A stretch of DNA of 64,000 nucleotides from Gammaproteobacteria bacterium (GTDB taxonomy: Bacteria; Pseudomonadota; Gammaproteobacteria; JAJPIJ01): positions 1 to 64,000 of the forward strand of contig JAJVHZ010000022.1 of the NCBI GenBank assembly GCA_022072255.1, written 5' to 3'. Shown piece by piece: positions 23,453 to 51,954 of the stretch. The notes under the pieces were generated by a model. The model was not told where the DNA came from, made no database searches, and saw only the letters and a program-made list of their open reading frames with translations. Each line of letters starts with the position of its first letter. Within the stretch, counting starts at the first letter, position 1. The position numbers and the translations under genes are program-made.

Positions 23453-23529
23453 TGGTAGCGGGGGCAGGATTTGAACCTGCGACCTTCGGGTTATGAGCCC
23501 GACGAGCTGCCAGACTGCTCCACCCCGCA
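23453..23529 (-). tRNA. tRNA-fMet (initiator, anticodon CAU)
   Basis: Minus strand: tgcggggtggagcagtctggcagctcgtcgggctcataacccgaaggtcgcaggttcaaatcctgcccccgctacca; GGG/CCC anticodon stem and encoded CCA. Confidence 0.97.
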
Positions 23530-38148: not shown

Positions 38149-39269
<1,121 letters not shown>

Positions 39270-39463
39270 GCGTCGTGATTCGAGGACGCACCACCTCGCG
39301 CCGATAGCGACTGCGTGATGCCAGATGAAGCGCGTGACGAGTCGTTGAGATGCGGCATCGAGCGGCGCGAAGAGTTGCGAATGACGAACAACGGATGCTT
39401 GTGCGAACCACCGACATCAATCATCGACGAGCGATCCCAGTCGTAACCAGATTACAAAAAAGT

Positions 39464-39492
39464 TTGCAACTGTTCGCATTGTGATGTATATA
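39464..39492 (+). promoter_or_regulatory. near-consensus sigma70 promoter (TTGCAA - 17 nt - TATATA)
   Basis: ttgcaa at 39464-39469, tatata at 39487-39492, 17-nt spacer, A-rich tract directly upstream. Confidence 0.7.
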
Positions 39493-39547
39493 AATGCGCG
39501 TGGTACTTGCTTCACATGCTGTTCAACACATCGATAGGGGGTTAAAC

Positions 39548-39640
39548 ATGGCAGCAAAGAAGAAGGCTAGCAAGAAAAAGGTAGCGAAGAAGTCGGCCGC
39601 GAAGAAGACGAAGAAGAAGGCAGCGAAGAAGAAGAAGTAG
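39548..39640 (+). CDS. 30-aa Lys/Ala-rich basic microprotein (histone H1-tail-like)
   Basis: ATG...TAG reads MAAKKKASKKKVAKKSAAKKTKKKAAKKKK; AGGGGG Shine-Dalgarno-like motif with 6-nt spacing; not in supplied ORF track because of length. Confidence 0.7.
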   Translation: MAAKKKASKKKVAKKSAAKKTKKKAAKKKK

Positions 39641-39889
39641 TCAGCAGTACGGGCACAAAGGTACGATTCGGCGGGATGCCAGGAACGGTTGAAAGCCGAT
39701 AATCGATAAGGCGACGCGAGCGGTAACAAGGAATCAGATACCGCCGCCCGCCGCGTAGCGCAACCTCTCAGGTTCTCCTCTCGACATTCCAACTTCAGTC
39801 AGCCAGCCTCCGGCACCCGGTGCAGACCGACGGGCGTCGCGGATCGCGGTTCACCCCGTCGGAGCCGCAGTGCGGGCTTCACCCTGAAG

Positions 39890-42193
39890 ATGGCCACCAA
39901 GCAAAAACCCCGGAAAGCGCGCCGTTTTTCCCTGCCGCGCGCGCTGTTGCTGCAGCTCGTTCTGGTCTTCATCATGGCCGTGGTGGCCTACGTCCTCTGG
40001 GTCGATCACCAGGTGACCAGGACCTTCACCGGCTGGCACTGGCAGCTCCCGGCGCGCGTGTATGCCCGTCCGCTGGAGCTGTACGCCGGGCTCGCGATCG
40101 ATCGCGACGCGGTGGCGGCGGAGATCCTGCGATTGGGCTATCGGAAGGTCGACCGCCTGGACGGACCCGGCCAGTTCGCGGTTCTCAAGGATGAGCTGCA
40201 GATCCATACCCGCGGATTCGCCTTCTCGGACAAGCAGGAGGCGCCGCAGCGATGCCGCATCCGGTTCAACGCCGGAGTCGTGGCGGACGTCGACACCCTC
40301 CCCGCCCGGACGCCGATTGCGATCCTGCGGCTGGAGCCGATGCAGATCGCCCGCATCTACCCGACTCACAACGAAGACCGGGTGCTGGTCCGGCTGACGG
40401 ACGTCCCGCCCGAGATGATCGAGGCCCTCATCGCGACGGAGGACAGGCGCTTTTATCGGCACGTCGGCATCGATCCGCTCGGCATCGCGCGCGCCATGGT
40501 CTCGAACATCCGCCACCTGCGTTTCGACCAGGGCGGCAGCACCATCACGCAGCAGCTCATCAAGAACTATCACCTCAGCCACGAACGCACCCTCGTGCGC
40601 AAGATCCCCGAGATGGCCATGGCGCTGTCGCTGGAGCGCCATTACACCAAGCAGCAGATACTCGAGGCCTACCTGAACGAGATCTTCCTCGGGCAGGATG
40701 GGAAGCGCGCCATACACGGCTTCGGACTCGCCGCGGAGTTCTATTTCGGACGCCCCCTGAAAGAGCTGCGCCTTCCCGAACTGGCTTTGCTGGTCGGCCT
40801 GGCCAAGGGCGCGTCGTATTACGATCCAAGGCGATTCCCGGAGCGCGCGCTGGCGCGCCGCAACCTGGTCCTGGACCTGATGGCGGAGCAGAAGAAGATC
40901 ACCGCCGAGGCCGCGGCGCGGGCAAAGGCGGCGCCGCTCGGCGTCATCGCCAAGCCGCTGTTCCGCAGCACCCGCTACCCGGCGTTCGTGGAGCTGGTGA
41001 GGCGACAGTTGCGCCAGGACTATCGTGAAGAGGACCTTCGCAACGAAGGCCTGCAGATCTTCACCACCATCGATCCGCGCGTGCAGGCGGCCGCCGACGA
41101 ATCGGTGAGCGGCCAGATCGCCGCCCTGGAGAAGGGCTACGCCCGGCTCAAGGGCCATCTGCAGGCGGCGATGGTGGTCTCCAACCATCAGACCGGCGAG
41201 GTGCTGGCCATCGTCGGCGACCGCAATCCCGCCTATGCGGGATTCAATCGTGCACTGGACGCGCGCCGCCCGGTCGGTTCGTTGCTGAAGCCCGCGGTGT
41301 ACCTGGCGGCACTGCAGCGCCCGGAATCCTACGCCGTCAACACGCTGGTCGCCGATGAACCCGTCACCGTGGACATGCACGGCAAGCCGTGGACGCCGGG
41401 CAATTACGACGGCATCCCGCACGGCCCGGTGACCATCGAGGAAGCCCTCGCGCACTCCTACAACCTCGCCACGGTGCAGCTCGGCATGTCCCTGGGCGTG
41501 CCCGCGGTGGTGGGCGTGCTGCGCGGTCTGGGCATCGACCGGCCGTTGCCGGAGTATCCATCCCTGTTCCTCGGCGCGGCCGACCTCTCGCCGATGGAGA
41601 TCGCACAGATGTATCAGACCATCGCCGCGCGCGGCTTCCGCACCCCGCTGCGCGCCATACGCGAGGTGCTGACGCGTGACGGCCAGCGCCTGAAGCGCTA
41701 CGAGCTGAAGACGACAGCGGCCATCGACGCGCGCGCGGACTACCTGCTCACCTATCTGCTCACGCGCGTGACCTCCGAGGGCACGGCGGCGTCGCTGGTG
41801 CGCTGGCTCGGCGCCGGGCGCGTCGTGGCCGGCAAGACCGGCACGACGAACGACCTGCGCGACAGCTGGTTCGCGGGATTCGGCGAGGACCTGACGGCGG
41901 TTGCATGGATAGGGCGCGACGACAACGCACCGATAGGGCTGACCGGCGCGCAGGGGGCGATGCGGGTCTGGGGACAGTTCATGGCCGATGCGCATGTCCG
42001 GTCGCTGCGCATGGATCCGCCGGAAGGCATCGAATGGCGCTGGGTCGATCGGCAGACGGGCGCGTTCACGCGCGCGAACTGCCCCGGATCGCGCAGCGTG
42101 CCGTTCATCTCGCCAGCGCCGGTGGCTGCTACACTTGAATGTCCGACGACGTTGTTTGGCACACCGGAGACGACCTATGCACCAATCCGCTGA
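39890..42193 (+). CDS. mrcB: bifunctional penicillin-binding protein 1B (transglycosylase/transpeptidase)
   Basis: TEDRRFYRHVGIDPLGIARAM...GGSTITQQLIKNYHLS; RPVGSLLKPAVYLAAL; VAGKTGTTNDLRDSWFAGF. Confidence 0.95.
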   Translation: MATKQKPRKARRFSLPRALLLQLVLVFIMAVVAYVLWVDHQVTRTFTGWHWQLPARVYARPLELYAGLAIDRDAVAAEILRLGYRKVDRLDGPGQFAVLKDELQIHTRGFAFSDKQEAPQRCRIRFNAGVVADVDTLPARTPIAILRLEPMQIARIYPTHNEDRVLVRLTDVPPEMIEALIATEDRRFYRHVGIDPLGIARAMVSNIRHLRFDQGGSTITQQLIKNYHLSHERTLVRKIPEMAMALSLERHYTKQQILEAYLNEIFLGQDGKRAIHGFGLAAEFYFGRPLKELRLPELALLVGLAKGASYYDPRRFPERALARRNLVLDLMAEQKKITAEAAARAKAAPLGVIAKPLFRSTRYPAFVELVRRQLRQDYREEDLRNEGLQIFTTIDPRVQAAADESVSGQIAALEKGYARLKGHLQAAMVVSNHQTGEVLAIVGDRNPAYAGFNRALDARRPVGSLLKPAVYLAALQRPESYAVNTLVADEPVTVDMHGKPWTPGNYDGIPHGPVTIEEALAHSYNLATVQLGMSLGVPAVVGVLRGLGIDRPLPEYPSLFLGAADLSPMEIAQMYQTIAARGFRTPLRAIREVLTRDGQRLKRYELKTTAAIDARADYLLTYLLTRVTSEGTAASLVRWLGAGRVVAGKTGTTNDLRDSWFAGFGEDLTAVAWIGRDDNAPIGLTGAQGAMRVWGQFMADAHVRSLRMDPPEGIEWRWVDRQTGAFTRANCPGSRSVPFISPAPVAATLECPTTLFGTPETTYAPIR

Positions 42194-51878: not shown

Positions 51879-51954
51879 GCCCTGGTAGCTCAGGGGATAG
51901 AGCAACCGCCTCCTAAGCGGTAGGTCGGCGGTTCGAGTCCGCCCCAGGGCGCCA
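51879..51954 (+). tRNA. tRNA-Arg (anticodon CCU)
   Basis: gccctggtagctcaggggatagagcaaccgcctcctaagcggtaggtcggcggttcgagtccgccccagggcgcca; full cloverleaf with encoded CCA. Confidence 0.97.

Follow-up and report, generated by a model that had tools for sequence, protein, structure and literature searches.

A predicted lysine-rich microprotein gene with a conserved promoter of its own downstream of adk in Gammaproteobacteria

The locus between adk and mrcB

The window, that is, the whole 64-kb stretch of gammaproteobacterial DNA analysed here, carries adk (38631–39269, +), encoding an E. coli-type adenylate kinase (Pfam ADK, 7.5e-56; NCBIfam NF001379, 343 bits), and downstream of it mrcB (39890–42193, +), encoding penicillin-binding protein 1B (PBP1B; NCBIfam TIGR02071, 868 bits). 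A preliminary description had put the gap between the two at about 620 bp, and with adk ending at 39269 and mrcB starting at 39890, 620 bp is indeed its length. The same description spoke of an unusually AT-rich patch, which agrees with a GC content of 39–49% over 39400–39650 against 60–70% in the surrounding region. The window also holds two tRNA genes, at 23456–23529 (−) and 51879–51951 (+).

Within the gap lies a microprotein ORF (39548–39640, +), which begins with an ATG at 39548, ends with a stop codon at 39640, and encodes the 30-aa Lys/Ala-rich peptide MAAKKKASKKKVAKKSAAKKTKKKAAKKKK. Re-reading the sequence bore out these coordinates and the peptide first given for them, although a recount finds 17 lysines among the 30 residues where 18 had been claimed. 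Eight further residues are alanine, and acidic residues number 0. An alternative in-frame ATG at 39494, giving 48 aa, was rejected, as it lies upstream of the expected transcription start (~39499) and the Shine-Dalgarno sequence favors 39548. When a lysine filter was applied across the window, the sole other ORF to pass was a 12-aa frame. A gene of this size is easily overlooked by annotation, and the peptide has no match in Pfam or NCBIfam at E ≤ 10.

Upstream of the ORF stands a putative promoter made of three parts: an A-rich UP-like tract, AAAAAAGT (39456–39463, +), which the four genomes of the order share unchanged; a −35 element, TTGCAA (39464–39469, +), kept as TTRCA in 15 aligned loci and recognizable in further families beyond these; and TGATGTATATA (39481–39492, +), which joins GTGATG to the −10 element TATATA (39487–39492), with a 17-nt spacer between TTGCAA and TATATA. 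This last part is invariant in the 15 aligned loci, which come from two orders and were partly picked by this motif, so that its invariance is partly selected. Close variants of it are present in four further families, and TTGCA...TGATGTATATA-type promoters are visible in the families found by profile search too. The 5′ leader (39497–39547, +) is 96% identical to that of the sister species. It carries a conserved GTGGT element (39500–39504, +), at a distance of 43–46 nt from the ATG across loci, and the Shine-Dalgarno sequence AGGGGG (39536–39541, +), in which GGGG is invariant. Both the spacing of the promoter elements and the AGGGGG before the ATG had been correctly described. The term “near-consensus,” however, overstated the case: only 8 of the 12 sigma-70 consensus positions match, which is why the promoter is missing from the list drawn up by a consensus scan. 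The true evidence for this predicted promoter is its conservation, not its match to consensus.

Conservation and selection

Four genomes, from two genera, represent the order. The promoter block, AAAAAAGTTTGCA-N11-TGTGATGTATATAAATG, occurs in exactly one copy in each of them, and in all four it is found at the adk locus with a Lys-rich frame of 21–30 aa. Its 37-nt core is absent from the 365 other genomes of the class, even with up to 3 mismatches allowed, and a search of genome contigs for the exact promoter pattern gave no match. From promoter through leader to ORF (39447–39640), the block is 97.9% identical to that of the congener MAG isolate Bin_9R (L028), compared with 82–85% for the flanking intergenic DNA and 92% for adk and mrcB; the sole difference from this sister species within the ORF is one synonymous change. 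In the sister genus, residues and lengths have changed and the composition is kept, the frame reading MAAKKKAKKRPAKKKAKTKKRRR in G003 and MAAKKKAKKRSAKKKSKKRRR in G002; in the latter genome the locus is split, with promoter and ORF on the ends of two contigs. A tblastn-type search with the 30-aa peptide found matches in two congeners only. blastn matches to Lys-rich stretches elsewhere were mostly low-complexity and were left uncounted.

How far does the gene reach beyond this order? In a set of 80 named adk loci, a Lys-rich ORF occupies the corresponding position at three from outside it (L029, L033, and L035). A motif search with GATGTATATA-N6-8-GTGGT returned 12 loci in a second order (that of G094), all with the layout of the window: adk upstream, promoter, leader, G-rich ribosome-binding site, and a Lys/Ala-rich ORF of 38–121 aa beginning with MATAKKKA, MAKAKKKA, or a near variant. 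mrcB lies downstream in 11 of these 12 stretches. An extra match in G215, at a different site and without the gene, was discarded.

Since such a search selects its own motif, the independent evidence is the profile search together with the adk context, rather than the invariant columns. The profile, a sequence-only model of the block built from 15 regions and holding no adk information, was run on 369 genomes of the class. All 11 matches at E ≤ 2.4e-4 fall on the microprotein gene, and the four matches from families outside the build set (two from f12, one each from f120 and f121) all lie between an upstream adk and a downstream Lys-rich ORF. Only one of the 12 weaker matches (E ~0.001 and above), that in G176 (f29), has this context; the others lack it and were set aside as noise. 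The profile search thereby adds five genomes belonging to four further families, and corresponding frames occur in every genome of the order as well as in families f92, f12, f29, f120, and f121. adk is the upstream neighbor at every syntenic locus examined, and mrcB the conserved downstream neighbor in most relatives.

In the two best-sampled orders the frames range from 21 to 121 aa, with MA(x)AKKK... repeats and a Lys/Ala composition that is kept throughout. Variable length with constant composition is as expected for a chain that would be disordered and act through its charge. Within the single family f92, orthologues vary from 38 to 121 aa (L119, L122, L126, and relatives), apparently by repeat expansion.

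Substitutions within the frame were compared in pairs of loci. In L124/L125, which are of equal length and align without gaps, there are 7 synonymous and 2 replacement changes (pS 0.23, pN 0.02); the values are pS 0.50 and pN 0.05 for L128/L129, and pS 0.13 and pN 0.01 for L121/L122. Because aligning repeats by protein identity inflates synonymous counts, the ungapped pair weighs most, and with this caveat the frame appears to be under purifying selection. The preliminary description had proposed a stand-alone microprotein gene with its own promoter, and the proposal passes the refuting condition named with it: the frame is conserved in relatives along with adk synteny and the promoter, and purifying selection acts on the protein reading. 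Judged by these comparisons, the ORF is a real protein-coding gene, which several families of Gammaproteobacteria have retained together with its promoter.

Candidate functions and the tie to adenylate kinase

What could so short a polycation do? The reading that we favor, at a probability of roughly 0.6, is that of a real gene with an ancient promoter of its own, the shortest branch of a family of adk-linked, H1-tail-like polycations, whose product is probably a disordered polyanion binder. A disordered Lys-rich peptide would bind polyanions without sequence specificity, most likely nucleoid DNA, with RNA or polyphosphate (polyP) as alternatives. It would coat or bridge them, acting by charge neutralization, and its net charge and abundance would outweigh its length or sequence. 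The resemblance to H1-like tails noted earlier is backed by composition and by the longer orthologues. As was also proposed, the peptide may be highly expressed and nucleoid- or RNA-binding; its expression level, like its disorder, ligand, and physiological role, is something that we infer.

H1-like chains of Lys, Ala, and Pro, of the KPAA type, bind DNA, and AlgP sits on polyP granules, whose spacing requires the AlgP C-terminal domain (PMC9239181). All four genomes of the order have a PPK1 match. G014 (97% complete) carries a gene of the family and has no PPK1 match, so that it would be unsafe to regard polyP as the ligand in every case, and a role limited to polyP is weakened. Three points weigh against the favored reading: 21–30 residues are very short for a chromatin protein; the genome of the window has a second stand-alone H1-like gene, Lys/Arg/Ala-rich and 103 aa long, on contig C1 (L016:1376–1687, minus strand); and the Adk tails of other families point to a function linked to Adk, not to DNA at large.

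The link to Adk was followed in a sample of the class comprising 80 canonical adk loci from 67 families. A same-strand Lys-rich ORF lies no more than ~350 nt downstream at eight of the 80, besides the loci of G000, G002, G094, and G014, which belong to this sample too. The families with a Lys-rich ORF 3′ of adk are at least nine (f1, f92, f12, f29, f67, f120, f121, f134, and f140); those of f67 and f134 encode larger proteins with an added basic region, which are perhaps not orthologous. Of 40 genomes, 0 have such an ORF in the upstream control region and 8 have one downstream on the same strand (sign test p 0.008, with shared ancestry ignored). Lys-rich, partly coiled-coil-like ORFs were also seen on the opposite strand downstream of adk, at L204, L225, L227, and L212 (f30, f28, f55, and f5).

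In other lineages the chain is part of the enzyme itself. Adk genes were selected for their long open frames from 19 other families, and all 19 inspected end in an in-frame Lys-rich H1-like C-terminal tail of roughly 100–320 aa (L255–L273). Four of them were tested and proved to be genuine adenylate kinases, from a different clade (NF001380); tailed Adks are ~47% identical to the Adk of the window, and some genomes (G135, G037, and G083) have a tailed and an untailed Adk together. The presence of Lys-rich chains in two Adk clades, by neighborhood in one and by fusion in the other, suggests a functional link, and the association may have more than one origin.

A tentative alternative, to which we give a rather low probability, is that the polycation serves as a partner or tether, bringing adenylate kinase to the polyP granule, nucleoid, or ribosome for local nucleotide interconversion, other lineages having reached the same result by fusing the Lys-rich chain to Adk. 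The location of the H1-like AlgP on polyP granules (PMC9239181) and the PPK1 matches throughout the order are consistent with this. So are the placement immediately after adk, seen in at least nine families, the contrast between upstream and downstream regions, and the tails on every long-frame Adk inspected. The microprotein gene, however, comes with a promoter of its own and its product lacks an Adk-binding domain, G014 carries the gene without a PPK1 match, and the neighborhood may be inherited linkage; basic tails, moreover, are common on many unrelated bacterial proteins. Equally speculative is a wider idea: that in Gammaproteobacteria Adk is functionally paired with an H1-like polycation, which would bring nucleotide-energy metabolism to the nucleoid, to RNA, or to polyphosphate. 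The polycation partner would be encoded next to adk in some lineages and fused in frame to Adk as a tail in many others, with the window peptide as the minimal stand-alone form.

Less probable again is that the peptide is no nucleoid protein at all, and acts instead as a ribosome- or RNA-binding peptide or as a polyamine-like, charge-balancing counter-ion. The composition suits any polyanion, and the short length would suit a mobile counter-ion, but the peptide has no sequence feature specific to RNA, and for H1-like proteins from other systems the ligands are DNA or polyP (PMC9239181).

The dual-function small RNA that had been suggested at first fares much worse, and we consider it very unlikely that the locus yields a functional small RNA from its leader or transcript, the ORF being incidental or secondary. 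The adk–mrcB gap has no Rfam match at E ≤ 1, and the window leader folds no better than its shuffles (z-score +0.87), other leaders also staying within the shuffle range (−0.9 to +0.7). The leader is conserved nearly as strongly as the ORF, but conservation follows the codons, on which selection acts. The f92 leaders can form a TTCAAC-loop-GTTGAA hairpin just before the ribosome-binding site (seen in L111, L118, L124, and L125); by eye it shows no clear compensatory changes, and it is not retained as such in the order of the window. Least credible of all is a Lys-rich frame that arose by chance in AT-rich intergenic DNA, or the decaying remnant of a longer gene: low-complexity AAG repeats arise easily and the frames of the order are the shortest of the family, but the block is 98% conserved, its promoter elements are identical in two genera, and the single change to the sister species is synonymous.

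Comparison with known H1-like systems

Like the C-terminal domain of AlgP and PhaF in Pseudomonas, the family consists of a Lys/Ala-rich H1-like chain with repeats and with polyanion binding, predicted in our case (PMC9239181). Contrary to the microprotein, which corresponds to the tail only, AlgP and PhaF are much longer, with KPAA repeats and a further N-terminal part, and they have no reported linkage to adk. The AlgP arrangement of an N-terminal helical part followed by KPAA repeats does not fit the window peptide, which has 30 aa and no KPAA. Chlamydial Hc2 is a Lys-rich nucleoid protein whose length varies by repeat number (PMC2848022); Hc1 and Hc2 are Lys-rich like the family but belong to another phylum. 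With the HC2 model (PF07382), one orthologue scored 15.3 bits against a gathering cut-off of 40, and the window peptide gave no match. The Burkholderiales histone H1-like protein (NF038053, hist_H1_lk_Burk) is alike in composition, although its model is 195 aa long; an orthologue scored 14.2 bits against a cut-off of 80, and the window peptide again gave no match. In tailed Adks a similar Lys/Ala-rich H1-like chain is tied to Adk by fusion, and here by a separate gene. NF010381/PRK13808 models a 335-aa Adk, and tailed Adks reach only about half the NF010381 cut-off.

The window gene has the features of the adk-linked family: a stand-alone Lys/Ala-rich ORF directly 3′ of adk on the same strand, a TTRCA...TGATGTATATA promoter, and a G-rich ribosome-binding site. 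H1-like Lys-rich proteins are already known; the adk-linked family, its conserved promoter, and its 21–30-aa minimum were found neither in the literature searched nor in the family libraries. Pfam, NCBIfam, and Rfam do not recognize this polycation family, and the literature searched mentions neither a Lys-rich gene linked to adk nor an Adk with a Lys-rich tail. The microprotein would show how far an H1-like protein can shrink, under an unusually well preserved promoter, and the repeated tie to Adk, by neighborhood and by fusion, is a testable lead to the purpose of bacterial H1-like tails. By description, it can also be set beside Coxiella ScvA, a 30-aa basic peptide which it resembles in being small, strongly basic, stand-alone, and gammaproteobacterial, and which differs in being Arg/Gln-rich and stage-specific.
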